Assembly (NCBI RefSeq): GCF_001020565.1
Contig: NZ_LDAS01000001.1
Span: 3,659,502 to 3,723,501, forward strand
DNA: 64,000 nucleotides
Source of the DNA: Maribacter thermophilus
Lineage (GTDB): Bacteria > Bacteroidota > Bacteroidia > Flavobacteriales > Flavobacteriaceae
Direction of reading: 5' to 3'
The notes below the pieces were generated by a model. It had not been told where the DNA came from, made no database searches, and was given only the letters and a program-made list of their open reading frames with translations. Numbering within the stretch: the first letter of the stretch is position 1; each line of letters begins with the position of its first letter. This document shows positions 15,847 to 35,732 of the stretch, one piece after another. A program made the translations under genes and the position numbers.

Positions 15847-15889
15847 TGACGGTTGTCACGATTGTATTACGGTGTAAATGTTATATTGT
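15847..15889 (+). promoter_or_regulatory. Crp/Fnr-type dyad and -7 element upstream of cls copy 2
   Basis: TGAC-GGTT-GTCA at 15847-15858 fits TGAY-N4-RTCA. A weak element TATATTGT (15882-15889) is centred 33 bp downstream. The dyad is 90 bp before the ATG, further than at the other sites. See the findings. Confidence 0.5.
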
Positions 15890-15947
15890 GCACATTATTC
15901 ATCTTTATGCTCGTTGAGCAGTACCTAACTATACAAGTTAAAAGTCT

Positions 15948-17354
15948 ATGGGGACTATCCTATTTATTGGTATTTATGTCCTAATTACCATATCTATAGT
16001 ACTTACGATTCTTTTGCATGGTGCGAAACCTGTAAAGAGCTTAGCTTGGTTGTTGGCCATATTCGCAATACCTATCGGTGGCATAGTGTTGTACCTGTTA
16101 TTTGGTAGAAATAGAAGAAAGCTTAAGCTATTGCGCCTTAAACAAGACCTGTTTACAAAATTGCCAAAACCCAATGAGCAGCAAATAAATGCTTTTGGGG
16201 GTAGATTCAAAAAACTGATAAAGCTGTTGTATAAAAACTCACATTTTCCTCCTACATCGAACAATGAACTACAATTGTTGAAAGATGGAAAAACAACCTT
16301 TAACGCAATTTTTGAGGCATTGGAGAAGGCAAAGACCCAAATTCATATCCAGTATTACATTTTTGAGGAAGGGGAACTTGCCGACCGATTATTGGCATTG
16401 TTCGAACAAAAAATTGCCGAAGGTGTTACCGTTAGAATGATCTATGACGGTATTGGCAGTTTCTCATTAAGTAAGAGCTATTTAAAAAAGCTCAATGCCT
16501 TAGGGGTACAGGTCTATTCTTTTCTTCCGTTTAAGTTTGGTCGGTTTTTTTCTTCCTTGAATTATAGAAACCATAGAAAAATTATTGTGGTCGACGGTGT
16601 TACGGCCTTTACCGGGGGGATAAATATCTCGGATAAATATTTGAAAGGTCAAATAGGGCTAGGTAAATGGCACGATATGCATTTAGAGGTCAAAGGGCCT
16701 GCCGCCAATCACCTAGACCAAGTTTTTATGATGGACTGGTATTTGGTAAGCGAGGAATTGTTGAAACCGTTGGTACATGCAAAGAACGAGGTGGAGGTTA
16801 TTTCCGATTCTTTGGTGCAGATAGTTTCCGGTGGTCCGGACGATGATTTTCCGGTGTTGGAACAAACCTACTTCTCCATTATCAACAAGGCTAAAAAATA
16901 CTTGTACGTTACAAATCCGTATATAATTCCGAGTCAGGCCATTATACAGGCTTTGCAGACGGCGGCATTAAGCGGGGTAGATGTGCGCCTATTGGTTTCT
17001 GAAAATGCCGACAATACTATCGTAAGTTGGTCCGTACACTCGTACTTTGAATCGTTTTTAAAAGCAGGAGTTAAGATCTATCTCTTTCCCGACGGTTTTT
17101 TACACAGTAAGATCATTGTAAGCGATGACGCTATCAGTACCATCGGAACCGCCAATTTGGACGATCGTAGTTTTGAACAGAATTATGAGGTAAATGCCGT
17201 TATTTATGACAAGGCCTTTGCTCAATTGTTAAAAGAAGACTTTCTTAGGGATAGCGCTACCAGTAAAATGCTCAACTATGAGGAATTTGTGAACAGACCA
17301 TGGGGGAAGAAATTGAAAGAGGGTGTCGGTAAAATTTTTAGTCCCCTGTTATAG
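15948..17354 (+). CDS. cls: Cardiolipin synthase (phospholipase D type), copy 2
   Basis: A 468-residue paralogue of the gene at 6468, with two N-terminal helices (about 3-23 and 31-52). HKD motifs are at H209/K211/D216 (YRNHRKIIVVDG) and H386/K388/D393 (FLHSKIIVSDD). It makes cardiolipin at the inner membrane. It has its own promoter region with a TGAY-N4-RTCA dyad, which suggests that this copy is the stress-controlled one. It converges on the lipoprotein gene at 17373. Confidence 0.92.
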   Translation: MGTILFIGIYVLITISIVLTILLHGAKPVKSLAWLLAIFAIPIGGIVLYLLFGRNRRKLKLLRLKQDLFTKLPKPNEQQINAFGGRFKKLIKLLYKNSHFPPTSNNELQLLKDGKTTFNAIFEALEKAKTQIHIQYYIFEEGELADRLLALFEQKIAEGVTVRMIYDGIGSFSLSKSYLKKLNALGVQVYSFLPFKFGRFFSSLNYRNHRKIIVVDGVTAFTGGINISDKYLKGQIGLGKWHDMHLEVKGPAANHLDQVFMMDWYLVSEELLKPLVHAKNEVEVISDSLVQIVSGGPDDDFPVLEQTYFSIINKAKKYLYVTNPYIIPSQAIIQALQTAALSGVDVRLLVSENADNTIVSWSVHSYFESFLKAGVKIYLFPDGFLHSKIIVSDDAISTIGTANLDDRSFEQNYEVNAVIYDKAFAQLLKEDFLRDSATSKMLNYEEFVNRPWGKKLKEGVGKIFSPLL

Positions 17355-17372
17355 TCCGTTGCAAGTAGGAGC

Positions 17373-18011
17373 CTATTCAGATTCTTTTATAAAAATCAGA
17401 TCTTGCTCCTCCATGGCCACTACGATCATTTTTATATAATCGTCTATGGCCTTTTCTATATTCCTGGGGTCTGTTATATCTATAATGCCCCTCCAGATCA
17501 TAGACCTTTCCTTGCCCTCGCAAATGCAATATAAAGTGGTTTCGGCGTGGTACACCTTAAAGTTCTCGTAGTAACTTTCGTCGTAGTAAATACCTTGGTG
17601 CTCTAGGTAGTCATCGTTAAAGCGTCTTTGGTGATCCTCTAACCGGGATATGGATTTTATAAAGCTTTGCCGGTTTTCAGATCCGGTTATTTTAGTAAAC
17701 AAAATGGCATCAAAATCTTTGTCTAGAAGGCTTTGCTCTACATCGTCCAATTCTTTTTCGGTTTTTTGGGAGTCGGTGAAAGAGACATCAAAAACATCGA
17801 TACTTCGCCAAGCTTCCACCTCTCTTTTTTCGAATTCTTTTTTCAGTTGGTTCTCAAAATGCTCTCGGGCATCCTGGTTTTGTGTCATGCCTACCAATAA
17901 AACCTTGTCCGCATGAAACAATACTATATCGGGGTTTTTCCAGTTTTCAACTAAACTTATCGGGGAACAACTGGTTACAAGAATAATGGCCAAAAGGATT
18001 GATCTTTTCAT
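17373..18011 (-). CDS. Lipoprotein of unknown function (DUF4136-like)
   Basis: A 212-residue lipoprotein; signal peptide MKRSILLAIILVTSC with lipidated C15. The mature part begins with a W-containing stretch (ENWKNPD) followed by DKVLLVGMTQNQDARE. It resembles DUF4136-type periplasmic proteins, though only weakly. I start it at the ATG at 18011, because the frame upstream (to 18065) adds residues before a perfect signal peptide. A dyad with a TATTTTAG element lies just upstream, so it seems to belong to the same regulon as the Usp genes. Confidence 0.7.
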   Translation of the reverse strand: MKRSILLAIILVTSCSPISLVENWKNPDIVLFHADKVLLVGMTQNQDAREHFENQLKKEFEKREVEAWRSIDVFDVSFTDSQKTEKELDDVEQSLLDKDFDAILFTKITGSENRQSFIKSISRLEDHQRRFNDDYLEHQGIYYDESYYENFKVYHAETTLYCICEGKERSMIWRGIIDITDPRNIEKAIDDYIKMIVVAMEEQDLIFIKESE

Positions 18012-18040
18012 TTGAAAGTTGGTTTTGCAGGTATATGGGC

Positions 18041-18083
18041 CTAAAATAAGGGAAATATCAAACAACGTATATGATATCCATCA
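18041..18083 (-). promoter_or_regulatory. Crp/Fnr-type dyad and -7 element upstream of the lipoprotein gene
   Basis: TGAT-ATCC-ATCA at 18072-18083. On the minus strand TATTTTAG (18048-18041) is centred 33 bp from the dyad centre. The dyad ends 61 bp before the ATG at 18011. Confidence 0.6.
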
Positions 18084-18119
18084 TTTAGGTACTTATCGGT
18101 TTTAAAATGAGATACTTGC

Positions 18120-19490
18120 CTAAACCACTATCTCCAGTGTTTGGTTCAATTTTGGAATTTGGCAGTTCCATCCCTTAACATCCTTGATCTTTACCCTAAA
18201 GGCATCTAAGGCTGTCGGTTCACCATGTATCAGAAAAACGGCCTCGGGTACATTTTTAATAGTATCTACCCAATGCAAGAGACCATTTTGGTCGGCATGG
18301 GCAGAAAGACTCTCGATAAGGTGAATTTTGGCCTTTACCGGGTAATATTTACCAAACAGTTTTACCTCGTGGCAACCTTCCAATAGTTGACGGCCCCTAG
18401 TGCCTTCTGCTTGGTAACCTACTAATAATACATTGGTCGTAGGTACGTCTATTAATTGCTTTAGGTACGTTAATACCCTACCGCCCGTAACCATGCCGCT
18501 TCCGGCAATAACTATCTTGGGTCTTGGGTCGTCTATGGTTTTCCAGGTATCGGCATATGAGGTTATGATGGTGAAATGCTGTAGCATGGCATGGTATTCG
18601 TCTAAAGACAACTTATGCCAATCTGGAAAACGCTCAAAAACAGAAAGTACATTATTGCCCATGGGGCTGTCTATAAAAATAGGGATGTTGGGTATTTTGT
18701 TTTTCTTGAACAATAGCCAAAGGGTGTACATAAGCGATTGTAAACGCTCTACGGCAAAAGAGGGGATAATAAGAGTACCTCTTTCATGAATGGTCTTCTG
18801 TACCAAGGTGCTGAGGATTTCTGTAACATCCTCTTGGGGATGCAGTTTATTGCCATAAGTACTTTCCAAGAATAAATAATCGGCCCATTCTGGACGCTCG
18901 GGCGTGTCCAATAACAGATCATGTACCCTGCCAACATCTCCAGAGAAGACAAAGGTTTTTTCAAATATCTCCAGTTCAATAAAAGTGGCCCCTATGATAT
19001 GGCCGTTGAACCTAAATTTAAAGCGTATGTGGTCCGATAGGGATATCCATTCACTTTTTGGGCAAGATTCAAATAGTCTAAGGGTATTTTTAGCTTCTTC
19101 TACAGAATAGAAGGGCAGGGCGGGGCTATGTTTCGAAAACCCTTCTTCGTTGGCTTTCTTGGCTTGCTCCTCTTGAATTTTAGCACTGTCCAAAAGAATA
19201 ATTTCAGTAATGTTCAGGGTAGGTGCGGTGCCGAGTATTTTACCGCTGAACCCTTCTTTTACCAGTCTTGGCAGGTAACCCGTATGGTCTAAATGACCAT
19301 GGGTCAATAAAACCACATCAACATTGGCGGCGTTTATGGGCAATGGTTTCCAATTGTTTTCCCGTAATTCCTTTAAGCCTTGAAACATTCCGCAGTCTAC
19401 CATAATGTTAAGCTCTGGGGTCTCTAAATAAAATTTAGACCCCGTAACGGTGCCGCAAGCTCCCAGAAAATGAATTCTAACGTTGTTCAT
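18120..19490 (-). CDS. MBL-fold beta-CASP nuclease (CPSF73/RNA exonuclease family)
   Basis: A 456-residue metallo-beta-lactamase-fold RNA-processing enzyme. The zinc motif HxHxDH is H64, H66, D68, H69 in LLTHGHLDHTGYL. A beta-CASP insert and the C-terminal zinc/RNA motifs follow (FSGDVGR, SGSGMVTGGR-like GSGMVTGGRV, SLSAHADQNGL, HGEP). Enzymes of this family are endo- or 5'-exoribonucleases. It is the last gene of a run MscS - ATP-cone nuclease - this gene, with only 4 bp before it. Confidence 0.92.
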   Translation of the reverse strand: MNNVRIHFLGACGTVTGSKFYLETPELNIMVDCGMFQGLKELRENNWKPLPINAANVDVVLLTHGHLDHTGYLPRLVKEGFSGKILGTAPTLNITEIILLDSAKIQEEQAKKANEEGFSKHSPALPFYSVEEAKNTLRLFESCPKSEWISLSDHIRFKFRFNGHIIGATFIELEIFEKTFVFSGDVGRVHDLLLDTPERPEWADYLFLESTYGNKLHPQEDVTEILSTLVQKTIHERGTLIIPSFAVERLQSLMYTLWLLFKKNKIPNIPIFIDSPMGNNVLSVFERFPDWHKLSLDEYHAMLQHFTIITSYADTWKTIDDPRPKIVIAGSGMVTGGRVLTYLKQLIDVPTTNVLLVGYQAEGTRGRQLLEGCHEVKLFGKYYPVKAKIHLIESLSAHADQNGLLHWVDTIKNVPEAVFLIHGEPTALDAFRVKIKDVKGWNCQIPKLNQTLEIVV

Positions 19491-19494
19491 AGTT

Positions 19495-20337
19495 TTATTG
19501 ATTGCAAAGTTGACCTACTTCTTTTAATATTTTTTCTTTTCTGGTGCTGGAGATTCCCAAATGGTCCAGAAAAAACTTGTCTTTTACCAATTGTCTGCAA
19601 AGCACTACATCCCTGCTAAGTAAAAATTGTTTTTCTCGATTGGTAAGTAGCGATAGTACGGTTATGGGGTAGAGGCTTAACCTATCTATCCTATCTTTAA
19701 GGCCGTTGTTTTTAGGGTAATCCCAGCTTAATAGATAAAGGTCGCTACATTCGCCATATTTTAGTGCATCTTCGGTAAATCGGGTATTGGTAACCACCCA
19801 CCCCCGATCCAGTTTCTTGGTGTTACTCTTTTTACTCAACCAATGACTCTTTATGTCGTTATATCTAGAATTGATGTAAAGGGGTATTTTTACATTGCAG
19901 TTAAGGCCTTCTTCATTATGAAATTTGCATTCGACAATGGTTATGGTTTCATTCTTTTCGGCCAATACATCAACTTCGTGCTTTACACAGGTGCCCGTCA
20001 TTATTATATCTACCTGAACAGAAAAACCCGAATATTGTAGAATGGCGGCCACAAAGCGTTCAAAAGGAAACCCTGTCGGACCCAGTTCATAGATGGCTTT
20101 TTTTAGTTTGTATTTAGAGGCAAAGACCGATTTTTTTCTTTTTAGCAGAGCATAGGCACGATTGTATATTTCTTTGGTAGAAATACCCGGGTACACCTCT
20201 GAACGAACGGTATCTACGATCTGCTCTACCAATTCATGGTTGGCGCCACTATGTTTTAGCGAGTTTCTGAGCTTGTCCAAAGAAAATATCGCTTTTTCCC
20301 CCGATGATTTTATGATTTCAATATCCGGTGTAGTCAT
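19495..20337 (-). CDS. ATP-cone domain fused to a Mrr-like restriction nuclease domain
   Basis: A 280-residue fusion. Residues 5-95 form an ATP-cone, the nucleotide-sensing domain of ribonucleotide reductases and NrdR (IIKSSGEKAIFSLDKLRNSL...). Residues 85-200 look like a Mrr-type PD-(D/E)XK nuclease: FPFERFVAAIL, D123 in EVDVLAEK, and E136-C-K138 in TIVECKFH. The active-site residues are intact. The gene overlaps MscS by 4 bp and is followed after 4 bp by the beta-CASP nuclease, indicating one transcript. It suggests a nuclease gated by nucleotide level; target unknown. Confidence 0.82.
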   Translation of the reverse strand: MTTPDIEIIKSSGEKAIFSLDKLRNSLKHSGANHELVEQIVDTVRSEVYPGISTKEIYNRAYALLKRKKSVFASKYKLKKAIYELGPTGFPFERFVAAILQYSGFSVQVDIIMTGTCVKHEVDVLAEKNETITIVECKFHNEEGLNCNVKIPLYINSRYNDIKSHWLSKKSNTKKLDRGWVVTNTRFTEDALKYGECSDLYLLSWDYPKNNGLKDRIDRLSLYPITVLSLLTNREKQFLLSRDVVLCRQLVKDKFFLDHLGISSTRKEKILKEVGQLCNQ

Positions 20338-21239: not shown

Positions 21240-21253
21240 ATAATTTTATTTAT

Positions 21254-21748: not shown

Positions 21749-22588
21749 TCAATGCAATGCCAATATGGGTACCGTGGCTTCATAACCTATTTCTTTTAGC
21801 AATGGTTTAGAGAACACACTACCAAAAAAGACATGTTTGCGGTTAATGAAGGCCATCATGTTACTATCTCTACTTTCTATAAAAGTTTGTATCCCCTTAG
21901 CCAAATTACTTTCTGTAAGGTCATGAAAGCTATGGGGCGTCTCTTCTAAAATAGTATTCAATAGTTGCTTGTTGGCCTCTTGGTCACCGCTTAGTTCGTT
22001 GTTTTTGTCGAGATGTAAAACGGCTATATTGCTATGGTGCATTTTACCTATTTCTATAAGATAGCTAAGCTCTTTGCGTTTAAACTTGGCTTTGTAATCG
22101 GTAGGGAAAACAATTTCTTTGGGAGTGGTGTAAGAGATTTCGTCCGGTATGGCCAATACGGGGCATTCCCTTATTTTTTCCATGGCATTTACCGTATTGC
22201 TTCCAAAGAAAACCTTTTTTGATCCTGTAGCGCCCTTGGTGCCCATGGCAACCAGATCAACATCCTTTTCGGTAATTATCTTTTTCATGGCCTCTAACAA
22301 GAAATCTAGGGTTGTAATGGTATGATAACGATGTTTGGGGTTATCGTTATGTAATGCCAGTGTATGCAGTAACTTTTGAAATTTCTTTTCCGTATCTTCT
22401 TTTGCCAACTCAAACGCGGCGCTACCAGATTCTGGAATTATTAAATTCTCTGTAGTGTAGCGTTCAAAGTCAAGAACGTTCAGTAAGTAAAAATCACAGT
22501 TTAGCTTTGAATACAGATCTATGGTATACCTCACGGCATTCAAGGCATTCTTAGAGAAATCGGTAGGTATAAGAATCTGTTTGTTCAT
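21749..22588 (-). CDS. Universal stress protein, double Usp domain (Usp-1)
   Basis: A 279-residue protein with two Usp domains. The first (1-148) keeps the ATP-binding pattern G-2X-G-9X-G-S/T as GTKGATGSKKVFFGSN (116-131) and D10 in PTDFS. The second (about 150-279) retains the fold, but its glycine loop is replaced by NRKHVFFGSVFSKPLL. Cytoplasmic. It begins 62 bp after usp-2 with its own dyad and promoter element, and is followed by the eRF1-like gene. Part of a six-gene Usp cluster. Confidence 0.9.
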   Translation of the reverse strand: MNKQILIPTDFSKNALNAVRYTIDLYSKLNCDFYLLNVLDFERYTTENLIIPESGSAAFELAKEDTEKKFQKLLHTLALHNDNPKHRYHTITTLDFLLEAMKKIITEKDVDLVAMGTKGATGSKKVFFGSNTVNAMEKIRECPVLAIPDEISYTTPKEIVFPTDYKAKFKRKELSYLIEIGKMHHSNIAVLHLDKNNELSGDQEANKQLLNTILEETPHSFHDLTESNLAKGIQTFIESRDSNMMAFINRKHVFFGSVFSKPLLKEIGYEATVPILALH

Positions 22589-22610
22589 GACATTATTTTT
22601 ATATGTTTCT

Positions 22611-22653
22611 TAAAAATAACTGTCGGTCACCAGAATTACTATGACAATTGTCA
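22611..22653 (-). promoter_or_regulatory. Crp/Fnr-type dyad and -7 element upstream of usp-1
   Basis: TGACAATTGTCA (22642-22653) is a perfect 12-bp palindrome. TATTTTTA (minus strand, 22618-22611) is centred exactly 33 bp from it. The dyad ends 54 bp before the ATG and overlaps the stop codon of usp-2. Confidence 0.7.
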
Positions 22654-23505
22654 CTCTCTCATAGGCAGTATCAGAAAAGGAGATTTCGCATACAGACTAA
22701 TATCTTTTATGACCGGTTCGCGTAACAAACGTTCCATAAAACTTCTTTTCATGTACACCATGGCCAGCATGGTAATACTGTGGGTCTCTATAAAACTATC
22801 AATAACCTTTGCCTTATCGTCAAATTCCAGAACTTGATGAAACGAGTGCTCCACATCTTTTAAACAGATCTCCAGTAATTTTTGGTTGGATATCTGCACT
22901 GCATCCAGTTTTTCCTCACTTGCAATATGCATGACGTTAATGGGGGCTTTGGTAGTAGTGGCCACCGACAAAAGCGGGGCCAAGGTTTTGGCGTTGCACC
23001 CTTTTTTATAATCGGTTACGAATGCAATATTGTTTTGTGGTTTATAATCTATACCCTTCGGAATCGCCAACAGGGGACATTGATGTATGCTGCCGGCCAC
23101 TTTTAGGGTATTGCTGCCCATAAAAATTTCTTTGGCACCTGTTTTTCCCTTATTGCCCATTACTACCAAATCGATCGCAAGATTTTGAACCGTCTTTGGT
23201 ATTACCGTGGCCAATGTACCCCGTTTGGATATAGTATGGTACGTATGGTTTTCGTTACCCGTGTCCAAGGTAATTCTGTGCGATATTTTTGTTAGGCCCT
23301 CAACGGACTCCTTTTGTAGTTTCTCCAACTTTTTTTTGCCCATTAAGGGGACCTTGTGCGTGCCTGTCAAAGGCGTGGCCTCGTCATAAACATTAAGAAT
23401 ATAAAAAGTACACTCTTGCATGGCCCAAATTTGGGTGGCATTAAAGAGTGCGTTATAGGCCTCGTCCGAAAAATCGGTGGCTACCAGTATTTTTCTAATT
23501 TCCAT
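22651..23505 (-). CDS. Universal stress protein, double Usp domain (Usp-2)
   Basis: A 284-residue two-domain Usp protein. Domain 1 carries the nucleotide loop GNKGKTGAKEIFMGSN and the N-terminal ATDFSDEAYNAL. Domain 2 has lost the glycine loop (MKRSFMERLLREPVIKDISL). It follows usp-3 by 3 bp, so the two are co-transcribed. The end of the gene overlaps the dyad that appears to control usp-1. Confidence 0.9.
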   Translation of the reverse strand: MEIRKILVATDFSDEAYNALFNATQIWAMQECTFYILNVYDEATPLTGTHKVPLMGKKKLEKLQKESVEGLTKISHRITLDTGNENHTYHTISKRGTLATVIPKTVQNLAIDLVVMGNKGKTGAKEIFMGSNTLKVAGSIHQCPLLAIPKGIDYKPQNNIAFVTDYKKGCNAKTLAPLLSVATTTKAPINVMHIASEEKLDAVQISNQKLLEICLKDVEHSFHQVLEFDDKAKVIDSFIETHSITMLAMVYMKRSFMERLLREPVIKDISLYAKSPFLILPMRE

Positions 23506-23508
23506 AGC

Positions 23509-24345
23509 TTACAATTGAGGTATTACCATAAAGGGAATGGTTACATGAAATCCTATTTTTTTAATTACGGGCTCTATAAAGAGACGCTCTATAAAAGTGT
23601 GTTTGTTCTGGATCATGACCAATAGGTTAATTTTTTGCTTGATCTGAAATTTGTTGATCGCAGATATTATTTCGTCGTTGCCAACATCGTGGAACAACGC
23701 TTTATAGCCCAATAGTTTTTCTAGATCGGTCTTATTTTTTTGCTGGATCGGGGTAAGTTCGTGCCCGGTAGAAACGTGCATTACGTTTATTTCAGACAAA
23801 TGTTTATCGGCAATATCTAAAAGCGAAGACATTTTTTGTTCGTCATATTCCACTTCATAATCCGTTGGAAAAAGTATAATCTTGGGGTCTTCGTACTCAA
23901 ACCCGTCCGGTATGGCAAGTACGGGGCATTTTGTGTTCTTGATTACGTCGACCGTATTACTGCCCATAAAAATTTCTTTGGCACCAGTGGCTCCCTTGGT
24001 ACCCATAATGACCATATCTATATTTTCCTTCTCTACCACATATCTTATTTCACTAGAGAGTATATTAAAGGCAGAGCGGGTGATGAACGTATGCAGTGGA
24101 TTTTCAAATTCTTCTTCCAATCTTGATTTTAATTTTTTAAGATCGGTCCTGGACTGTTCTTGAAGTAAATCTCCCAAACCAATTTGTCCCGGGCTTCCCA
24201 ATAAATATTCTGTGTGGTAAACTGGTGGCATGTAGGTGTTTAATAGAAAAAAGGTGCATTCTACATCTTTAAAGGCCCGTAAGCCATATTTTATGGACTC
24301 CAAGGCGTTGTCAGAGAAATCGGTAGGTAAAAGAATTCGTTTCAT
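23509..24345 (-). CDS. Universal stress protein, double Usp domain (Usp-3)
   Basis: A 278-residue two-domain Usp protein beginning MKRILLPTDFSDNALESIKY. The first domain has the ATP loop GTKGATGAKEIFMGSN; in the second it is replaced by QNKHTFIERLFIEPVIKK. The ATG at 24345 is used, since the frame upstream only reaches a TTG. It is first in a two-gene unit with usp-2 and is divergent from the thioredoxin gene. One dyad at 24397 lies about 51 bp from both starts. Confidence 0.9.
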   Translation of the reverse strand: MKRILLPTDFSDNALESIKYGLRAFKDVECTFFLLNTYMPPVYHTEYLLGSPGQIGLGDLLQEQSRTDLKKLKSRLEEEFENPLHTFITRSAFNILSSEIRYVVEKENIDMVIMGTKGATGAKEIFMGSNTVDVIKNTKCPVLAIPDGFEYEDPKIILFPTDYEVEYDEQKMSSLLDIADKHLSEINVMHVSTGHELTPIQQKNKTDLEKLLGYKALFHDVGNDEIISAINKFQIKQKINLLVMIQNKHTFIERLFIEPVIKKIGFHVTIPFMVIPQL

Positions 24346-24365
24346 AATCAAAATATTTTACTTCA

Positions 24366-24439
24366 TAAATGTAAGGGTCTAACTTTGCAAAAACCATGAT
24401 ATTGGTCAGTTGAGCCTCTTTCTAATTTTAGTAACTTAG
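24366..24439. promoter_or_regulatory. Shared dyad with two -7 elements between usp-3 and thioredoxin
   Basis: The dyad TGAT-ATTG-GTCA is at 24397-24408. On the minus strand TACATTTA (24373-24366) and on the plus strand TAACTTAG (24432-24439) are each centred exactly 33 bp from the dyad centre. One site seems to drive both genes; it lies 52 and 51 bp from the two ATGs. Confidence 0.7.
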
Positions 24440-24458
24440 TGTTGTTAATAGTAGAAAA

Positions 24459-24758
24459 ATGAAAAGTTCATTCAAAGAGATTATCGACTCGGATGTACCC
24501 GTTCTGGTAGATTTTTTTGCAGATTGGTGTGGTCCCTGTAAAATGTTGGCTCCTATTCTTAAACAAGTAAAGGACGATATGGGCGATGGTTTAAAGATCG
24601 TGAAGATAGATGTGGACAAAAATCAGCCATTGGCCAATAAATATAATGTAAGGGGAGTGCCCACCATGATGTTGTTTAAGAACGGAAAACAGCTTTGGAG
24701 GCAATCTGGAGTGTTACAAAAAAATGATATCTTGGCAGTTGTTAGGCAATTTGCTTAA
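24459..24758 (+). CDS. trxA: Thioredoxin
   Basis: A 99-residue single-domain thioredoxin, cytoplasmic. The redox site is WCGPCK with C24 and C27, preceded by PVLVDFFADW. The cis-proline is in RGVPTMMLFKNGK. It reduces protein disulfides using thioredoxin reductase. It is divergent from usp-3 and shares its dyad, so it is probably a stress-induced thioredoxin. Its stop codon lies in the stem of a terminator. It converges with usp-4. Confidence 0.95.
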   Translation: MKSSFKEIIDSDVPVLVDFFADWCGPCKMLAPILKQVKDDMGDGLKIVKIDVDKNQPLANKYNVRGVPTMMLFKNGKQLWRQSGVLQKNDILAVVRQFA

Positions 24759-24771
24759 CAACTGCCGGTTT
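24734..24771 (+). terminator. Terminator overlapping the end of trx
   Basis: GGCAGTTGTTA (24734-24744) pairs perfectly with TAACAACTGCC (24756-24766), followed by GGTTTTTA. The TAA stop is part of the stem. Confidence 0.85.
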
Positions 24772-24790
24772 TTATCTAACGTAGCAGTTT

Positions 24791-25630
24791 TTACTCATGT
24801 ACCACCAAGAAAGGAATTTTGGTGTGGTAGCTTATCTTTTCTACGGTCGGCCTAAAAAGAATTCGTTCTAAAAAGTTTAGGTTTTTGGCTACCATGACCA
24901 GCATATCCAAGTTTCTGCTTTCTGCGAAACACTGTACCGCGGCATCTATTTTTTTACCGGTGATCATATGAAAGGATTGCTCGGTATCTTTAAAATAATC
25001 GGCCAATATTTGTTTGTTCTTTTGTTGCTGTTCGCTAAGCTCTTCTCCCTTTATAGAAATATATAAGAACCTTAGACTAGATTTTTTAAGGGTTATAAGA
25101 TCACGGATGGTATCTAGTATCTTAACATTGTACCTTAGTTGAAAGTCGCTTGGGAAACCCACCTCTACGGGTCTGTGATAGGTGCTATTCTCGGGTACCG
25201 CCAAAACGGTGCAGGGCACTTTGGTGATAACATTACCGGTGTTGCTGCCTATGGAAACCGATTTAAGGCCAGAAGCACCCTTGGTACCCATAATAATGAG
25301 GTCTATCTTTCTTTCTTTGGCCTCTTTCTTTAAATGGTCGGTTAAAAAACCATAAAGGGCAACTGTCTCAAATTTATGTTTGGGGTTTAGGGGTAGTTGT
25401 TGAATTCTTTCTAAGAGCTCTTTTAGTTTACCGATACTCTCTTTTAATAATGAATCTTCCAATATTTCGGGTGAAATATACATAGGTGTTTCCCCACTGG
25501 CATTGGTATTCATTGAACTTACATGGACAATATGAAAAACACAATGTGTTTTTTCAAAAAATGAGATTCCGTAGAGCAATGCATTCCAGGCATTTTCCGA
25601 GAAATCTGTGGGGATCATAATATTTTTCAT
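24791..25630 (-). CDS. Universal stress protein, double Usp domain (Usp-4)
   Basis: A 279-residue two-domain Usp protein starting MKNIMIPTDFSENAWNALLY. The nucleotide loop in domain 1 reads GTKGASGLKSVSIGSN; domain 2 lacks it (AKNLNFLERILFRPTVEKI). It is the third gene of the usp-6/5/4 unit, 28 bp after usp-5, and converges on thioredoxin. Confidence 0.9.
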   Translation of the reverse strand: MKNIMIPTDFSENAWNALLYGISFFEKTHCVFHIVHVSSMNTNASGETPMYISPEILEDSLLKESIGKLKELLERIQQLPLNPKHKFETVALYGFLTDHLKKEAKERKIDLIIMGTKGASGLKSVSIGSNTGNVITKVPCTVLAVPENSTYHRPVEVGFPSDFQLRYNVKILDTIRDLITLKKSSLRFLYISIKGEELSEQQQKNKQILADYFKDTEQSFHMITGKKIDAAVQCFAESRNLDMLVMVAKNLNFLERILFRPTVEKISYHTKIPFLVVHE

Positions 25631-25658
25631 GACTTATCTATTGTTAGTTTGTGGGTGT

Positions 25659-26507
25659 TTAAATATGTTCTGGTAAAAACAACACGGGTATGTTGGAGTG
25701 AAAGGCTATTTTTTTAATAACCGGTTCTCCAATAACTTTTTGCCAGAAGGTATGATGATGCCTTATAATACTTAAGATACCATCGTCTATAGTATCTACA
25801 TAGGTATCCAAGGCGTTAGATATGCTTGTGGTAAACGGCACTTCTACAAATTCATGTTTCAGTCCTTTCAAGCGTTGTTCTAACACGCTTTTGTTTTTCT
25901 TTTGTATATCGTTCAGTGCAAAGGATACGGCAACATGGGCAATTTTGACATTGGCATCCCAAAGTTTCGCGAGGTCTGTTAAAGGTTGTAGGCCATGTTT
26001 TTCATACTGCTGCATAAAATCTGTAGCAAAGACGATATCTTTTAACCGTTGAAAATTATAGGCAGACGGTACCGTTAAAATAGGAATGTTCTTTACCGTT
26101 TTTATGGCTTTTACCGTATTGCTGCCCATAAAGACCTCTTTGGCCCCTGTAGCCCCTTGCGTGCCCATGATCAACAGGTCCATGTCTTTTTCTTGGGTCT
26201 CTTCTTCAATGGCTTCTGTTAACGTGGCCGCCTTAGAAACACTATTAACGCTATGGTTTGGGTTATGGTGGTTGGTTTCCAAGTAGTTTAAAACCTCTTG
26301 CATTTCTTGTTCTGAGTACTGCGAAAGCGAGTCGTAGATAACGCCCAATCTTTTTTGACTTTTATTGTCAAGAAGATTTAGCATAGACGGTTCGTAGGCA
26401 TGCAATATGGTGAATTCACATTTTTCGTTAGCGAAAAGTTTTAACGCCGTAAAAATGGCATTCCACGCGTTGTCTGAAAAGTCTGTTGTCAATAATATTT
26501 TTTTCAT
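25659..26507 (-). CDS. Universal stress protein, double Usp domain (Usp-5)
   Basis: A 282-residue two-domain Usp protein starting at the ATG at 26507 (MKKILLTTDFSDNAWNAIFT). The frame upstream of this Met does not belong to the family. Domain 1 has the loop GTQGATGAKEVFMGSN; domain 2 is degenerate (HHHTFWQKVIGEPVIKKI). It lies 19 bp after usp-6 and 28 bp before usp-4, in one unit. Confidence 0.9.
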   Translation of the reverse strand: MKKILLTTDFSDNAWNAIFTALKLFANEKCEFTILHAYEPSMLNLLDNKSQKRLGVIYDSLSQYSEQEMQEVLNYLETNHHNPNHSVNSVSKAATLTEAIEEETQEKDMDLLIMGTQGATGAKEVFMGSNTVKAIKTVKNIPILTVPSAYNFQRLKDIVFATDFMQQYEKHGLQPLTDLAKLWDANVKIAHVAVSFALNDIQKKNKSVLEQRLKGLKHEFVEVPFTTSISNALDTYVDTIDDGILSIIRHHHTFWQKVIGEPVIKKIAFHSNIPVLFLPEHI

Positions 26508-26526
26508 AGTACGTACCTTTTTTAAG

Positions 26527-27372
26527 TTAGCGGGGCAAGTTTTGCAAAACCAAAAATGGAATAGGGGTATACAATGCAATTTGATCTACCGTAGAACGGT
26601 ATAACATATCCTCTAGAAAAGAATGTCGAGAATTTACCATGGTTAAAAGGTCCATATTGTTTTGGTCCATATAGTCCATGATCGCCTCGGCCCTGTTCTT
26701 TACCGAGGTTCTTTTAGAGTGTATCATGGCATTGGGCAGTGAAGCTTCTAAAAATTTTTTGTTGTCCGATTGCCTGTGGCTCAAATCCTCGAAGTCTGAA
26801 ATATATAAAGTGTGTATTTCAGATTTGTAACGGGCGGCCAGGGTATCAAGAAGTTTTAGCTCTCTACGTTTGTAGGGGACCATATAATCTGTTGGAAACA
26901 ATATTTTTTTTGGCGGGTTGTAAGCGTACTGGTCGGGTACCGCCAGTACTGGGCAGTTTACATACTTAAATACCTGTATCGTATGGCTACCGAAAGTTAC
27001 CGTTTTATCTGCCGTTTTTCCTTTGGTGCCCATTATGGTAAGATCTATGTTTTTGAGGTTAACAAAAGCATTGACCCCATCTACCAAAGAATCAAAAGTG
27101 GCTACGGATTCGTAGTGGTGCCTAGGGTTGTGCCTTTTCTCTTTTTGTTCGGTGATGATCTCGTCCAAAAGTTTTTTAGAATTAAGGGCAATGGCTTTCT
27201 TCTGTTTGTCAAAAAAAGAATCTTCAACATTATGGGTTACTTCATAAACTTCATCCGCATAGGTGTGCAAAAAGTAAAAGTTCGCACGCTCACATTTAAA
27301 GAGGTCGAGCGCATACGAAATCGCATGGGCCGCATTACTGGAAAAGTCGGTAGGGATCAGTAAATTTTTCAT
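26527..27372 (-). CDS. Universal stress protein, double Usp domain (Usp-6)
   Basis: A 281-residue two-domain Usp protein, first in the usp-6/5/4 unit. Domain 1 contains GTKGKTADKTVTFGSH, which keeps the three glycines of the ATP motif but changes the loop interior. Domain 2 has no such loop (NSRHSFLEDMLYRSTVDQI). A dyad and -7 element lie 54 bp upstream of its ATG, and the response-regulator gene is next upstream on the same strand. Confidence 0.9.
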   Translation of the reverse strand: MKNLLIPTDFSSNAAHAISYALDLFKCERANFYFLHTYADEVYEVTHNVEDSFFDKQKKAIALNSKKLLDEIITEQKEKRHNPRHHYESVATFDSLVDGVNAFVNLKNIDLTIMGTKGKTADKTVTFGSHTIQVFKYVNCPVLAVPDQYAYNPPKKILFPTDYMVPYKRRELKLLDTLAARYKSEIHTLYISDFEDLSHRQSDNKKFLEASLPNAMIHSKRTSVKNRAEAIMDYMDQNNMDLLTMVNSRHSFLEDMLYRSTVDQIALYTPIPFLVLQNLPR

Positions 27373-27394: not shown

Positions 27395-27437
27395 TAAAAA
27401 TATAGGAGGGCCTAAAGAAAACCTATGATATTTGTCA
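27395..27437 (-). promoter_or_regulatory. Crp/Fnr-type dyad and -7 element upstream of usp-6
   Basis: TGAT-ATTT-GTCA at 27426-27437. TATTTTTA on the minus strand (27402-27395) is centred 33 bp from the dyad centre. Same arrangement as usp-1 and usp-3. Confidence 0.7.
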
Positions 27438-27476: not shown

Positions 27477-28526
27477 TTATGTTATGTTTTGAAGTTCTTT
27501 CAGTTTAAGTATGCGAATGTTTCTACCTTCGATGGCGATGAGCCCTTCCTTTTTAAAACCGGACAGGGTTCTAATAAGGCTTTCTGGGGCAATACCGGCC
27601 ACACTGGCAAGGTCGCTTCTAGATATTTTAATGGCGTCATCTGCGCTCTTGTTCATTATTTGGGCAAATTGTAATAATGTCTGGGCCGTTTTTTTCCGTA
27701 CAGAACTATAGGCCATTTGTAGAAGCTGTTGTTTTATCTCGGTGATATTGCCCGAAAGAAGTTCCATTAGTTCTAAAGAGATCGAACTGTTTTTTTCTAA
27801 GATCCCCATTAGTTCGTCTTTAGAGATAGCGGCAAGTTCCACATTTTCTAGGGCACTGGCAGATTCTTTATAAGGGGTATTGTGCATAAATGAAGTAAAA
27901 CCTAAAAAATCATCTGCCCGGTGTAGCGATGTAATTAGCTCTTTGCCTTCGGGGTCTACGGTATGACATTTTACGGTGCCGCGGGTAATCAGGTAAACCG
28001 TATGTGATCTAGACCCTTCTTCATATATGGTATCGCCCTGTTCAAATTCCAAAATCTCGCCATTATCGTCAAAATAATTTTTGAGCTGGTTTAGGTCTCG
28101 TAATTCATAGGTGTCTTCGTCTTTTGTTTCCTTGGCTCCATTCTTTTGAAGCAGTGCCGCTTTTGCCAACCTACTTTCTACTGCGCTGATCAGGTCCTCT
28201 TCTTCAAAAGGTTTGGTAAGGTAGTCGTCCGCACCAAGATCCATTCCTTTTCGGATGCTTTTGTGTTCTGTAATGGCAGAAAGAAAAATAAAAGGTATAT
28301 GCTGTGTACTACTATCCGAAGATAAATCTTCTAAAACACCGTACCCGTCCACTTCCGGCATCATAATATCGCAAATAATAAGGTCTGGCAAATGCTCTTT
28401 GGCAGCGGTAATACCGGCTTTGCCATTGGGGGCGGTAAGTACGGTATAATCTGAAAGTTCTAAAAGTTCTGCCGTGTTTTCTCTGAGAACCCTGTCATCT
28501 TCGATCAGTAAAAGTTTCTTCATCAT
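27477..28526 (-). CDS. Response regulator with REC, cyclic-nucleotide-like and Crp/Fnr HTH domains
   Basis: A 349-residue fusion. The REC domain (3-125) has acidic residues E9/D10/D11, phospho-acceptor D53 (ICDIMMPEVDG) and K105 (LTKPF). A cNMP-binding-like domain follows (about 140-245: QGDTIYEEGSRSHTVYLI). A Crp/Fnr winged helix ends it, with recognition helix PESLIRTLSGFKKEG (E315, R319). The E..R spacing matches that used by Crp and Fnr to read TGA half-sites. It overlaps the kinase gene by 32 nt. It is the best candidate for binding the local TGAY-N4-RTCA dyads. Confidence 0.9.
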   Translation of the reverse strand: MMKKLLLIEDDRVLRENTAELLELSDYTVLTAPNGKAGITAAKEHLPDLIICDIMMPEVDGYGVLEDLSSDSSTQHIPFIFLSAITEHKSIRKGMDLGADDYLTKPFEEEDLISAVESRLAKAALLQKNGAKETKDEDTYELRDLNQLKNYFDDNGEILEFEQGDTIYEEGSRSHTVYLITRGTVKCHTVDPEGKELITSLHRADDFLGFTSFMHNTPYKESASALENVELAAISKDELMGILEKNSSISLELMELLSGNITEIKQQLLQMAYSSVRKKTAQTLLQFAQIMNKSADDAIKISRSDLASVAGIAPESLIRTLSGFKKEGLIAIEGRNIRILKLKELQNIT

Positions 28527-29676
28527 CTTTTGGTTTCTTGGTTTCTTGGTTTTTGGGAATACGGATCGTAAAGGTAGAACCTACATTTTCTTCGCTTTCA
28601 AAATAAAGACTTGCCCCCAGATTTTCCAAATGTTGTTTTGCAATATTTAGGCCTATACCAGTACCTTGGCTCAATAAGGCATTCTCGGCCCGGAAATAAC
28701 GGTCAAAAATATGCTTTTGTTGAGATTTAGGAATACCTATACCTTGATCTATAACCTCTAGGTAAATATACTCCGCTTCTCTTCTAAAGATAATTTTGAT
28801 CGTTGTCTGTTCAGGGGAATATTTTATGGCGTTGTTTATTAAGTTGGATAGCGCCAGGCCCAATATTTTTTCGTCGAACGTAATTTGTACTTCATCAATA
28901 TTATCGGGGTATTGAATATGTTGCTCTGTCTTTAGCAACATATTGGCATCGTATATGACCTCGTTGATCAATTTGCTCAACGCAAACTTTTCTATGTTGT
29001 AATTTACTTTACCCGAATCTAATCGTTCTACAGAAAGAAAATCGCTTAATATGGTATTTAGTTGGCGAACTTTAGACTTTATGGTAGCAATGTGCTTGTC
29101 CCGTTTTTCTTGCTGTTCGGTTTTTGTGTATTTGGACAAAAGGGTTATAGAAGTAAGAATACCGCTAAGGGGCGTTTTAAATTCGTGCGACACCAATGAT
29201 AAAAACCTTGTTTTAAGTTCATTGAGTTCTTTTTCTTTAATGAGGGCCTCTGTTAATTGTTTGGTACGTTCCTGTACGGTCTGTTCCAGTTTTAGGGTGT
29301 AATTTTTTCTTTCGGTAATGTCGGTTACCAAGGCCAGCACATAAGTGTCACCATAAATTTTAAAAGGGTTAAGACCGGCTTCTACCGGAAATTCTTCCCC
29401 GTTTTTACGAAGACCGTTCAGATCCATACCCTGGCCCATTCGTCTTTTTTTGCCTTTATCTATAAAATTTGAAACATGGCTCGTATGTTGACTATGATAC
29501 CGGGTAGGGATGATCACGTTCAATGATTTGCCTATAAGCTCATCTTTTTCGTATCCAAAAAGCTGCTCTGCAGAAGTATTGGTGGCCACGATTATTTGTT
29601 TGGTATTCACCACAATAATACCCTCCGAAATACCTTCGGCCAAAATATTGAATATATCACTGTTTTTTTGAAACAT
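28495..29676 (-). CDS. PAS-domain histidine kinase
   Basis: A 393-residue sensor kinase without membrane helices. It has a PAS domain (about 8-125: ILAEGISEGIIVVN to ALVTDITERK), a linking coiled coil, HisKA with phospho-acceptor H164 (SLVSHEFKTPLSGI) and HATPase with NLINNAIKYSPE, DQGIGIP and GTGIGLNIAK. It is presumably soluble and senses an internal signal. I use the Met at 29676; Mets at 29682 and 29715 are possible, but the last would overlap the dyad at 29703. It is followed by the REC-Crp gene with a 32-nt overlap, so the two form a two-component pair. Confidence 0.88.
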   Translation of the reverse strand: MFQKNSDIFNILAEGISEGIIVVNTKQIIVATNTSAEQLFGYEKDELIGKSLNVIIPTRYHSQHTSHVSNFIDKGKKRRMGQGMDLNGLRKNGEEFPVEAGLNPFKIYGDTYVLALVTDITERKNYTLKLEQTVQERTKQLTEALIKEKELNELKTRFLSLVSHEFKTPLSGILTSITLLSKYTKTEQQEKRDKHIATIKSKVRQLNTILSDFLSVERLDSGKVNYNIEKFALSKLINEVIYDANMLLKTEQHIQYPDNIDEVQITFDEKILGLALSNLINNAIKYSPEQTTIKIIFRREAEYIYLEVIDQGIGIPKSQQKHIFDRYFRAENALLSQGTGIGLNIAKQHLENLGASLYFESEENVGSTFTIRIPKNQETKKPKDDEETFTDRR

Positions 29677-29702
29677 TGGCATTCTACAAGATAATATTAA
29701 AC

Positions 29703-29745
29703 TGATACTTATCATAGTAAAGTAAGAATTATCATGTTATTTTTC
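29703..29745 (+). promoter_or_regulatory. Crp/Fnr-type dyad and -7 element upstream of the TerB-like gene
   Basis: TGAT-ACTT-ATCA at 29703-29714. TATTTTTC (29738-29745) is centred exactly 33 bp downstream. The ATG of the TerB-like gene is 60 bp beyond the dyad. No matching element is seen in the kinase direction. Confidence 0.65.
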
Positions 29746-29773: not shown

Positions 29774-30175
29774 ATGATGAATTCGGAAAATACGGGTATA
29801 GCCTTGTATGAAAACCTGGGCAAACTTTTTTATGCCGTCGCAAGTATAGATGGCAACGTGCATACCAAAGAAATAGAGCATTTGAGGTCTTTTATACGTA
29901 GTTATTGGTTGGATATAGATGAGATAGAAGATGAATTTGGCACCGATGCCGCCTTTTTGATAGAGACCGCCTTTGATTGGTTGTTCGCCAATGAGATAGA
30001 TGCAGATGAGTGCTATGACGAGTTTGTGGAGTTTTATGAAGAACACAAAGATAAATTTACACCCGAAATAAAGCGTTTAGTGATGGATACGGGCAATGCC
30101 ATGGCAAATGCCTTTGCGGGCAAGAACAAATCGGAACTGATATTATTGGCAAAGATCGAAATACTGTTCAGGTAG
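29774..30175 (+). CDS. TerB-like helical protein
   Basis: A 133-residue acidic, all-helical protein. LFYAVASIDGNVHTKEIEHL is the usual TerB-type metal-binding turn (A.IDG.V...E). It resembles the TerB/DjlA-N superfamily; tellurite resistance itself is not implied. Cytoplasmic. Divergent from the PAS kinase, with its own dyad and -7 element. Confidence 0.75.
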   Translation: MMNSENTGIALYENLGKLFYAVASIDGNVHTKEIEHLRSFIRSYWLDIDEIEDEFGTDAAFLIETAFDWLFANEIDADECYDEFVEFYEEHKDKFTPEIKRLVMDTGNAMANAFAGKNKSELILLAKIEILFR

Positions 30176-30194: not shown

Positions 30195-30237
30195 TGATAA
30201 AGGTCATAGTATTCTCAATAGCAACAAATTACATTAG
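30195..30237 (+). promoter_or_regulatory. Crp/Fnr-type dyad and -7 element upstream of the WG-repeat gene
   Basis: TGAT-AAAG-GTCA at 30195-30206. TACATTAG (30230-30237) is centred 33 bp downstream. The ATG lies 57 bp after the dyad. Confidence 0.65.
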
Positions 30238-30262: not shown

Positions 30263-30904
30263 ATGAAAAATAGCAGAAAATTATGGGGGCTGATAGTGCT
30301 TATGTTCACTACTGCCTTATCCGCTCAAACAATTGGTAATATTGACGAGATCGCTCCTTTTAGCGAGGGCTTGGCCGCTGTGCGGCAAGGGGAGCAATGG
30401 GGGTTTATAAATGATCAAGGTACATTGGTCATCGATTTTAGGGACGATATTTATTGGAACAAAAATGCAGACCTATCAAAAGAAGATGTCGCTGCGGTCA
30501 AATATCCTGTCTTTAACGAAGGACTTTGCATGATAGTGAAAAAGGTAGAGGATGGGGTGCCCGTATTCGGCTTTATAAACAACAAGGGAGAGACCGTCAT
30601 AGAACCCCAATTTTTAAATATTTATCCGTTTGAGAACGGGGTTACAACCGGGGTGTTGTTCGATAAGACCTTTAGGGGCGAAAATGAGTTTAAGTTAAAG
30701 ATCTATGACTATAAATTCTTTGATGTCATGGTAAACACCCAAGGTGAAATAACCGATTATTTCGAAAAAAGAGACCATATTCAAATGACCGTAAAAAGGT
30801 ATAAAATGCCAGATATAGGGGCAAAAATATTGAATAAGGGGTTAGTGGCCATACACAAACAAGATAAAGGTTGGGAGATACGTAAGTTGGATACCAAAAA
30901 TTAA
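30263..30904 (+). CDS. WG-repeat exported protein
   Basis: A 213-residue secreted or periplasmic protein. The signal peptide is about MKNSRKLWGLIVLMFTTALS, ending in AQ. WG repeats follow: EGLAAVRQGEQWGFINDQG, and a second unit ending VFGFINNKGETVIEPQF. The C-terminal half is less repetitive. Function of WG proteins is generally unknown. It follows the TerB-like gene in the same direction but has its own dyad, and a terminator lies downstream. Confidence 0.78.
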   Translation: MKNSRKLWGLIVLMFTTALSAQTIGNIDEIAPFSEGLAAVRQGEQWGFINDQGTLVIDFRDDIYWNKNADLSKEDVAAVKYPVFNEGLCMIVKKVEDGVPVFGFINNKGETVIEPQFLNIYPFENGVTTGVLFDKTFRGENEFKLKIYDYKFFDVMVNTQGEITDYFEKRDHIQMTVKRYKMPDIGAKILNKGLVAIHKQDKGWEIRKLDTKN

Positions 30905-30964
30905 AAAAGTAAGAGGGTGTTGGGCGTGGCCCCAAGATAATCTGGTATTATGTTCTTTTTTAAG

Positions 30965-31000
30965 AGCAGGTCTGCTGTAGTATGTAGGCCTGCTTTTTTT
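30965..31000 (+). terminator. Terminator of the WG-repeat gene
   Basis: AGCAGGTCTGC (30965-30975) pairs with GTAGGCCTGCT (30984-30994, two G-T pairs), followed by a long T-run. Confidence 0.85.
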
Positions 31001-31179
31001 GTTTTAAAAAGACAGGTGTCAACTATTTTTTTCGCTATAAAATATAAAGGGAAGCATATATTTTAACAGGGGGAACGTACAGTGTATGTTTTGGGTCCTG
31101 TACTGAGTTTTTTTATTATGTTTTTTCTTACTTTTAAAGAGGTTTTAAGACACATTGTGGAACAATAAACGTTTTGACT

Positions 31180-31440: not shown

Positions 31441-31451
31441 GTAAAGCGTAA

Positions 31452-32156: not shown

Positions 32157-32176
32157 TAATACGCTATCGTTATTAG

Positions 32177-34831: not shown

Positions 34832-34980
34832 GCGGATCTATTGTGATGGCTTCTTGGTAAAATAACAGAGGGGCCAATACAAAGGTGTTTTTGGGGAGAA
34901 CTATTTTGTAGTTTTATTCTCGCCGTTGCAACAAGGTTATTTTCATGAAAACCGTAACTTAAAAGCAAAATTTTTAAGTA

Positions 34981-35634
34981 ATGACCATTCATAATATAGG
35001 AAAAGACAATTCGCTTTTAAACAGGTTTGTTTCAGAAATGCGAGATGTACATGTCCAGAAAGATGCCATGAGGTTTCGCCGAAATATCGAAAGAATAGGT
35101 GAAGTATTAGGGTATGAAATGAGCAAGACCTTGCAATATTCGGATACAACGGTGCAGACGCCCTTGGGAGAAAAGGTAATGGCCTTACCGCAAGAAAACT
35201 TGGTGCTGTGTTCCATTTTAAGGGCGGGCCTACCCTTACATCAGGGCCTTCTTAATTATTTTGACAAGGTAGAGAACGGGTTTGTCTCCGCCTATCGCGA
35301 GCATAAAAACAATGAGGACGATTTTGAGGTGATCGTCAAGTACTTTGCGACCCCCTCGTTAGAAGGTAAGGTTTTGGTGCTCTCTGATCCAATGTTGGCC
35401 ACGGGCAAAACCATGGAAAATGTGCTAAAGGCTTTAGAGCCTTATGGCACCCCGGCTCAGATACACATAGTTGCGGTAATAGGTTCGGTAATAGGAGTCG
35501 ATTATATTAAAAAAGTGTTTCCCGAAAATACGCATTTATGGATCGCGGCGGTTGATCCAGATATAAATGCAAGGGGCTATATATTACCAGGGTTGGGAGA
35601 CGCCGGTGATTTGGCTTTCGGAATCAAGATGTAG
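34981..35634 (+). CDS. upp: Uracil phosphoribosyltransferase
   Basis: A 217-residue enzyme that makes UMP from uracil and PRPP in pyrimidine salvage. It has the PRPP loop SDPMLATGKTM (135-145), ILRAGLPLHQGL (79-90), and the C-terminal uracil-binding GDAGDLAFGIKM. Cytoplasmic. A promoter-like TTTTTGGGG followed by TATTTTGTAGTTTTA lies at about 34889-34916; the latter 15-mer also occurs upstream of the tyrosine operon (697-711). Confidence 0.94.
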   Translation: MTIHNIGKDNSLLNRFVSEMRDVHVQKDAMRFRRNIERIGEVLGYEMSKTLQYSDTTVQTPLGEKVMALPQENLVLCSILRAGLPLHQGLLNYFDKVENGFVSAYREHKNNEDDFEVIVKYFATPSLEGKVLVLSDPMLATGKTMENVLKALEPYGTPAQIHIVAVIGSVIGVDYIKKVFPENTHLWIAAVDPDINARGYILPGLGDAGDLAFGIKM

Positions 35635-35689
35635 TTTGGTGCTTTTTGTATTTCCTGAATACGGAAGTCAAGGGTTTTAATTCTTTGAC

Positions 35690-35732
35690 TGACATATATC
35701 ATTTTCTTTCTTTAAAGAAGTTCGCACTTTTA
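35690..35732 (+). promoter_or_regulatory. Crp/Fnr-type dyad upstream of the sigma-like gene
   Basis: TGAC-ATAT-ATCA at 35690-35701. CACTTTTA (35725-35732) is centred 33 bp downstream; its first base deviates from TAnnTTTA. The ATG is 59 bp after the dyad. Confidence 0.5.

Follow-up and report, generated by a model that had tools for sequence, protein, structure and literature searches.

In a 64,000-nucleotide stretch of the Maribacter thermophilus genome (contig NZ_LDAS01000001.1, positions 3,659,502 to 3,723,501; hereafter the window), eight TGAY-N4-RTCA dyads occur between positions 15847 and 35732, accompanied at a fixed distance by elements that resemble the -7 box of flavobacterial promoters. 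By sequence comparison, we find this pair of dyad and -7 box at one spacing to be conserved between genes and to be co-distributed with two regulators of the Crp family: a response regulator encoded in the window, which fuses a receiver to a Crp-type protein (REC-Crp), and a standalone FNR-like protein. It is probable, in our view, that the dyads serve as class II activator sites in a microaerobic Flavobacteriaceae regulon, and that both proteins read them.

How strong is the case within the window itself? A pattern search located all eight dyads, and all nine element strings quoted with them, where a first-pass annotation of this DNA had placed them. Taken alone, the excess of dyads is modest: the window contains ten, compared with 3.0 expected (the annotation had supposed about four), and one of 100 shuffles reaches ten. 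The strong part of the evidence is the fixed spacing, as the annotation had argued in relying on shared geometry rather than on the motif. Eight promoter directions carry an element matching TAnnTTTR in at least five of its six defined positions at a gap of 23 base pairs (bp). Over 300 dinucleotide shuffles such directions number 0.16 on average and never more than two, and in the window itself none of the other gaps between 0 and 77 (78 spacings) exceeds two directions. Three of the nine elements match at 6/6 and five at 5/6; the ninth, TATATTGT at the cardiolipin synthase gene (cls), reaches 4/6 only, so that eight of the nine directions claimed hold at this threshold. The two other dyads, at 6935 and 40306, lie within genes and have no element of 5/6 or better at the 23-bp gap. 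The description of the eight as intergenic is mostly right; dyad 22642 shares bases with the stop codon of the usp (universal stress protein) gene upstream, and dyad 29703 overlaps the longest open reading frame (ORF) of a kinase, unless the kinase begins at an internal ATG near 29676. Distances to the gene starts stand with one small correction, since the value for dyad 18072 presumes that the ORF at 17373-18065 starts at the ATG at 18011, which is probable, rather than at the TTG at 18065.

The same arrangement recurs in 79 related loci. They are the flanks of 80 relatives of the response regulator, the top-scoring 80 among at least 572, less one whose protein is identical to that of the window. 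These loci hold 422 dyads in 223 kb of intergenic DNA and 97 in 1372 kb of coding DNA, whereas seven permuted dyads gave 6-17 intergenic and 55-103 coding matches; some of the coding matches are probably mis-called, the frames having been set by a crude rule that takes the longest ORF. A strict element stands at gap 23 in 330 intergenic dyad directions, the next-highest of the 73 offsets from 0 to 72 having nine, and 31 coding directions likewise peak at gap 23. The pair is concentrated between genes, in agreement with the intergenic-to-coding comparison that the first-pass annotation had put forward as a check. Because the 23-nucleotide spacers are distinct in 351 of 361 strict directional sites, it is the spacing that has been kept and not a copied sequence. 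Across the 477 directions scoring at least 5/6, the logo reads [A/C]TGAY-N-[A/T]-[A/T]-T-RTCAT followed by TAnYTTTR; 437 of them can be assigned to a downstream frame, and the dyad most commonly ends 50-58 bp before the start (90 of the 477 lack a frame of at least 100 residues in range). Three of the 79 loci are without a strict site. Palindromes arising by chance in AT-rich intergenic DNA would account for about three dyads in 64 kb, but the eight composite directions of the window and the 422 intergenic dyads are ruled out as chance by the shuffles and the permuted dyads, and we give this explanation practically no weight. The pair is a family-wide conserved promoter code in Flavobacteriaceae.

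Where would such a dyad sit relative to the start of transcription? The available portion of a study of Flavobacterium psychrophilum places the sigma-A box TAnnTTTG at -12 to -5 (PMC9723704). Given this position and the 23-bp gap, the dyad would cover -47 to -36, with its centre at -41.5; the placement is transferred from a relative. A centre at -41.5 is the classic position of a class II activator, and a dyad with a TGA-N6-TCA core centred there, as found here with the box position taken from the relative, has the form of a class II site. It is also conceivable that the dyads bind a repressor that would obstruct RNA polymerase at the -33 region, which a dyad at -47 to -36 would adjoin. The one exact spacing observed in the related loci, however, fits contact between an activator and the polymerase and not steric blocking, and together with the classic -41.5 position it makes repression quite improbable. 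Class II activation by Crp-family regulators near -41.5, as the first-pass annotation had proposed, is well supported by the conservation of the pair, by the REC-cNMP-HTH_Crp regulator in the cluster, by the co-distribution of sites and regulators, and by the published box position.

The sites reach well beyond the window. A site profile, R1, was built on loci carrying the response regulator, each contributing a single site, with 72 of the 76 selected entering the alignment, and 150 of 4442 candidates were scored in its scan of the window genome (4.05 Mb), where the dyad alone occurs 187 times and the reversed pattern 108 times. R1 finds 19 sites at E<0.1, all with the exact 23-bp gap, a preference that is built into the profile. 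Fourteen of these lie outside the window, which rules out the purely local regulon suggested by the first-pass annotation. At E≤10, R1 lists six of the eight window dyads; dyads 15847 and 18072 are not among the sites listed and are on that account the weakest members. The genes just 3' of sites in this genome include fixS-ccoN, usp, hemN and genes for cytochrome c, HlyD, YceI, ferritin, a carboxymuconolactone decarboxylase-like protein and an MBL-rhodanese protein, and the standalone Crp/Fnr gene and fixI have in common a weaker site (E 0.3). Of the downstream proteins scanned, three (at L097, L098, L109) match no Pfam family, and two sites (L099, L107) have no frame of at least 60 residues nearby. 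In the 79 loci, each gene was named after the reference-set entry that it matched best by BLAST, and on this labelling sites stand before usp (184 sites in 75 loci), TerB-like genes (51 sites in 48 of the 79 loci), the ribosome-hibernation factor (25 in 25), WG-repeat genes (16 sites in 16 of the 79 loci), thioredoxin (11 in 11) and Hsp20 (10 in 10), as well as M50-CBS, fixI and fixS (nine each) and others, with 51 at unlabelled genes; the window has TerB-like and WG-repeat homologues of its own (see the table).

Dyads, -7 elements, proposed regulators and predicted targets in the window
Feature	Position	Strand	Setting	Basis
Dyad TGACGGTTGTCA	15847..15858		5' of cardiolipin synthase gene 15948-17354	Pattern search; not listed by R1
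-7-like element TATATTGT	15882..15889	+	cls promoter	TAnnTTTR 4/6; weakest partner
Dyad TGATATCCATCA	18072..18083		5' of 230-residue ORF 17373-18065 (-)	Not listed by R1
-7 element TATTTTAG	18041..18048	-		TAnnTTTR 5/6
Dyad TGACAATTGTCA	22642..22653		5' of usp gene 21749-22588	Pattern search and R1
-7 element TATTTTTA	22611..22618	-		TAnnTTTR 6/6
Dyad TGATATTGGTCA	24397..24408		Between divergent usp (23509-24351, -) and thioredoxin (24459-24758, +)	Pattern search and R1
-7 element TACATTTA	24366..24373	-	usp side	TAnnTTTR 6/6
-7 element TAACTTAG	24432..24439	+	Thioredoxin side	TAnnTTTR 5/6
Dyad TGATATTTGTCA	27426..27437		5' of usp gene 26527-27372	Pattern search and R1
-7 element TATTTTTA	27395..27402	-		TAnnTTTR 6/6
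Dyad TGATACTTATCA	29703..29714		Between kinase (-) and TerB-like gene 29774-30175 (+)	Pattern search and R1
-7 element TATTTTTC	29738..29745	+		TAnnTTTR 5/6
Dyad TGATAAAGGTCA	30195..30206		5' of WG-repeat gene 30263-30904	Pattern search and R1
-7 element TACATTAG	30230..30237	+		TAnnTTTR 5/6
Dyad TGACATATATCA	35690..35701		5' of sigma-like gene 35760-36527	Pattern search; R1 E 0.29
-7-like element CACTTTTA	35725..35732	+		TAnnTTTR 5/6
Response regulator, REC + cNMP_binding + HTH_Crp_2, 349 residues	27477..28526	-	Proposed dyad reader	Domain search
PAS-HisKA-HATPase histidine kinase	28495..29715	-		Domains; PAS best matches FixL/DosP haem PAS
Universal stress protein	21749..22588	-	Predicted target	Domain search
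Universal stress protein	23509..24351	-	Predicted target	Domain search
Universal stress protein	26527..27372	-	Predicted target	Domain search
Thioredoxin	24459..24758	+	Predicted target	Domain search
TerB-like protein	29774..30175	+	Predicted target	Pfam TerB 22.5 bits, just below cut-off 24.4
WG-repeat protein	30263..30904	+	Predicted target	Domain search
Cardiolipin synthase	15948..17354	+	Possible target	TIGR04265 above cut-off

Which proteins might read these sites? The response regulator of the window belongs to the Crp/Fnr superfamily by its cNMP fold and HTH_Crp_2 domain, and its PDB matches are Crp/Fnr-family regulators, CRP and FNR. It also has the features of a response regulator, namely the receiver Asp, Ser/Thr and Lys (D53, S83 and K105, kept in 80 of 80 regulators) and an adjacent partner kinase, and its recognition helix, of the [T/P]E[S/T]LIR type, is conserved. 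A cAMP-dependent CRP was considered and rejected, because the positions aligned with residues of CRP that we take to be its cAMP-contacting Glu and Arg are replaced: position 210 is F in 55 and Y in 20 of the 80, and position 219 is Y in 69 and H in seven. A histidine kinase homologue adjoins the regulator in 77 of the 79 loci; L047, one of the two exceptions, begins close to the edge of its contig. Outside the window the kinase homologues have reading frames of about 220 to 690 residues, so that the N-terminal part differs between genera. Several genomes (G034, G054, G142, G181 and others) have a second REC-Crp subfamily beside the main one, about 39-45% identical to the query.

The PAS domain of the kinase points to the likely signal. 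Entries named FixL or DosP, which we take to be known haem oxygen sensors, are the top 11 of its 18 PDB matches; two more of the 18, 1v9y and 1s66, are presumably DosP under other names, and the remaining matches include blue-light photoreceptors. If the FixL haem pocket is assumed to have its proximal His as ligand and an Arg as distal residue, the His is kept in 74 of 78 kinases and the Arg in 60. The same architecture could nevertheless serve another signal sensed by the kinase (nitric oxide, redox or energy state), in which case the regulator branch would be a general stress regulon. Many targets are indeed stress genes (usp, Hsp20, thioredoxin, the ribosome-hibernation factor), and the distal place is not Arg in 18 of the 78 kinases, including that of the window, which has the His and a Met at the distal place, a point that counts against an oxygen signal. 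Against this alternative stand the site common to the cbb3 genes, fixI, fixS, hemN and cytochrome c, and the FixL or DosP identity of all 11 best matches; we consider it unlikely, though it deserves to be taken seriously, and a link of the regulon to oxygen is likely on the domain and target evidence. Consistently, the accessible text on F. psychrophilum reports strong induction of cbb3 and raised haem-synthesis enzymes under oxygen limitation (PMC9723704).

The second candidate reader, the FNR-like protein P0001, is encoded in the cbb3 cluster of the window genome at about 2.456 Mb (L121). It can be aligned with solved FNR from end to end (E 3e-24), its best PDB match being 2gau, an unnamed Crp/Fnr protein, and it scores 108 bits against the NCBIfam Fnr model, whose cut-off is 228. 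In the numbering that we assume for the FNR cysteine ligands, P0001 keeps three of the four positions and lacks the third N-terminal cysteine, in place of which stands C54, invariant in 21 of 21 FNR-like sequences. A variant iron-sulphur site is possible. All four cysteines are invariant in these 21, and the recognition helix has the form ESxIR and closely resembles that of the response regulator.

The distribution of the two proteins among 199 Flavobacteriaceae genomes bears directly on who reads the sites. FNR-like matches occur in 133 genomes, REC-Crp matches in 101 and at least one of the two in 171, genomes beyond the matches listed being taken as without the regulator; site counts were taken among at most 31 scored candidates per genome. 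Genomes with both regulators have a median of 17 sites (n=63), those with the response regulator only 13 (n=38, no zeros), those with the FNR-like protein only eight (n=70) and those with neither zero (n=28). Of this last class, 19 genomes have zero sites, eight have one or two and one (G121) has ten; two (G043, G151) have partial or split FNR-like matches only, and among the 13 of at least 2.5 Mb, eight have zero sites. The REC-Crp search with the full protein was run on all 199 genomes after exceptions had been seen, the earlier query having been a 208-residue fragment, and it added seven genomes with a divergent or truncated regulator (G001, G022, G103, G127, G153, G164, G195). It accounted for the exception G164, where the match ends at residue 243 and the regulator is presumably cut by the assembly. 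The fragment-based classes had the medians 17, 13, 8 and 0 with n=57, 37, 76 and 29.

Could the FNR-like protein be the only reader, with REC-Crp binding something else and sitting there by chance? It is the commoner regulator, and in the cbb3 cluster its gene comes with sites of its own, but the genomes with only the response regulator are still rich in sites, which rejects the FNR-like protein as sole explanation of them. In 19 regions of such genomes, chosen for high-scoring sites, fixS has a site in 7 of the 7 that hold fixS, and 15 of the 49 genomes searched among those of the 79 loci have no FNR-like match, yet all 15 regulator neighbourhoods carry sites. We therefore regard a lone FNR-like reader as very improbable. 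The response regulator, for its part, is probably not the sole reader, since the presence of the standalone protein is predictive of these sites where the response regulator is missing. Of 20 regions around the FNR-like gene, 18 are still in the FNR-like-only class (the genomes of L125 and L143 having moved out), and in those 18 fixI has a site in all and fixS in 16. Site logos from FNR-like and regulator-only regions (56 and 41 sites) are alike in dyad and -7 box; the FNR-like set has a stronger A-tract 5' of the dyad, which may reflect shared cbb3 genes.

Several observations weigh against our preferred reading. Seven of the 70 FNR-like-only genomes hold merely one or two sites, although R1 was trained on response-regulator loci and may lower the counts in this class. 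G121 has its ten R1 sites with neither regulator found and with several other Crp-family proteins. Neighbourhoods average 4.2 sites in the 15 genomes without the FNR-like protein and 7.35 in the other 34 (P 0.01), P values here overstating independence because the genomes are related. On the kinase side of dyad 29703, no -7 element is found at the characteristic spacing, so that the kinase-regulator operon lacks this mark. Finally, the code goes undetected outside the family although REC-Crp homologues occur there: of 198 Bacteroidota genomes sampled, 32 have one, including 20 that belong to other families of the class. These 20 have 0-3 sites, as do 13 genomes outside the family that lack REC-Crp; that the code follows REC-Crp across the whole class is unsupported.

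We envision a scenario whereby falling oxygen would cause the FixL-like PAS kinase to phosphorylate the receiver of REC-Crp, whose dimer would bind [A/C]TGAY-N4-RTCAT, touch RNA polymerase at the TAnnTTTG box and activate usp, thioredoxin, the TerB-like gene, the ribosome-hibernation factor and genes related to these. An identical type of site stands before the genes of the cbb3 oxidase (fixS-ccoN, fixI), hemN and cytochrome c. The FNR-like protein would read these sites as well, so that a genome could keep the regulon with either regulator or with both. We lean, if only slightly, towards one promoter code with two interchangeable readers, a haem-PAS kinase with its receiver-Crp fusion and a variant four-cysteine FNR, such that sites persist when either is absent and are nearly always gone when both are. 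This interchangeability is the most interesting and the least proven part of the proposal.

Some features of the window stand beside this argument. Six universal stress protein genes are packed into about 6 kb (21749-27372), and only three are directly preceded by a dyad. The 255-residue sigma-70-like protein at 35760-36527 (+), with a dyad upstream, scores 42.0 bits against TIGR02937, just under the cut-off of 42.9, and is a possible regulatory branch. At 18120-19490 (-) lies a beta-CASP metallo-hydrolase whose best NCBIfam models, type VII Cas14 (378 bits, cut-off 800) and aCPSF1 (265, cut-off 580), are both below cut-off, and which we read as a putative RNase-like gene within the stress cluster. 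In the 280-residue protein at 19495-20337 (-), an ATP-cone domain precedes an Mrr-type endonuclease domain.

How does this code relate to known systems? It is not described in the available portions of a comparative study of Alphaproteobacteria (PMC4999443), nor in those of a CRP/FNR study with a Flavobacteriales bin, where the homologue is assigned to MalR-like carbon sensing (PMC8510549). Searches of open-access literature brought up no title or abstract that describes the regulon, subscription papers being outside the scope. Receiver-Crp fusions are probably included in censuses of response regulators. Flavobacteriaceae are abundant in sea and soil, and if our reading is true, it predicts a microaerobic regulon for much of the family (at least one regulator in 171 of the 199 sampled genomes), a compact pathway from FixL to Crp that needs no gene in between, and, in genomes that differ in reader while the sites stay, a natural experiment on how a regulon changes its reader.

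The mycobacterial DosR regulon likewise places many usp genes under a haem kinase and a response regulator for hypoxic survival, but DosR itself is of the NarL/LuxR type and its box is unrelated, whereas the reader here would be of Crp type. FNR of E. coli and Aliivibrio is a Crp-fold activator that acts in class II fashion from -41.5, as proposed here, and P0001 aligns with it along the full length and keeps three of its cysteine positions; unlike FNR, P0001 has C54 in place of the third N-terminal cysteine, the response regulator has a receiver domain, and the promoter uses the flavobacterial TAnnTTTG box. In the rhizobial circuit, hFixL-FxkR-FixK (or FixL-FixJ-FixK) and FnrN, a FixL-type kinase and FnrN converge on TTGAT-N4-ATCAA before cbb3 genes, a box placed at -32 to -34 in the numbering of the paper, in its accessible part (PMC7888657). 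Alike would be the two oxygen sensors, a FixL-type kinase and a cysteine-bearing FNR-type factor, acting on one box with a TGA-N6-TCA core before the cbb3 oxidase and its fixGHIS assembly genes. The outer bases differ, being [A/C]...T here: the final base is A in two and T in 448 of the 477 sites, and the full rhizobial box occurs in none of the 477 directions. The circuits differ, too, in that rhizobial FixL passes its signal to FixJ or FxkR, which in turn switches on a separate fixK gene, as far as the same portion of the paper goes (PMC7888657), whereas here one protein combines receiver and Crp-type reader, and no transcription step would have to intervene. By analogy, the rhizobial FixL/FnrN circuit appears to be the closest parallel in function.

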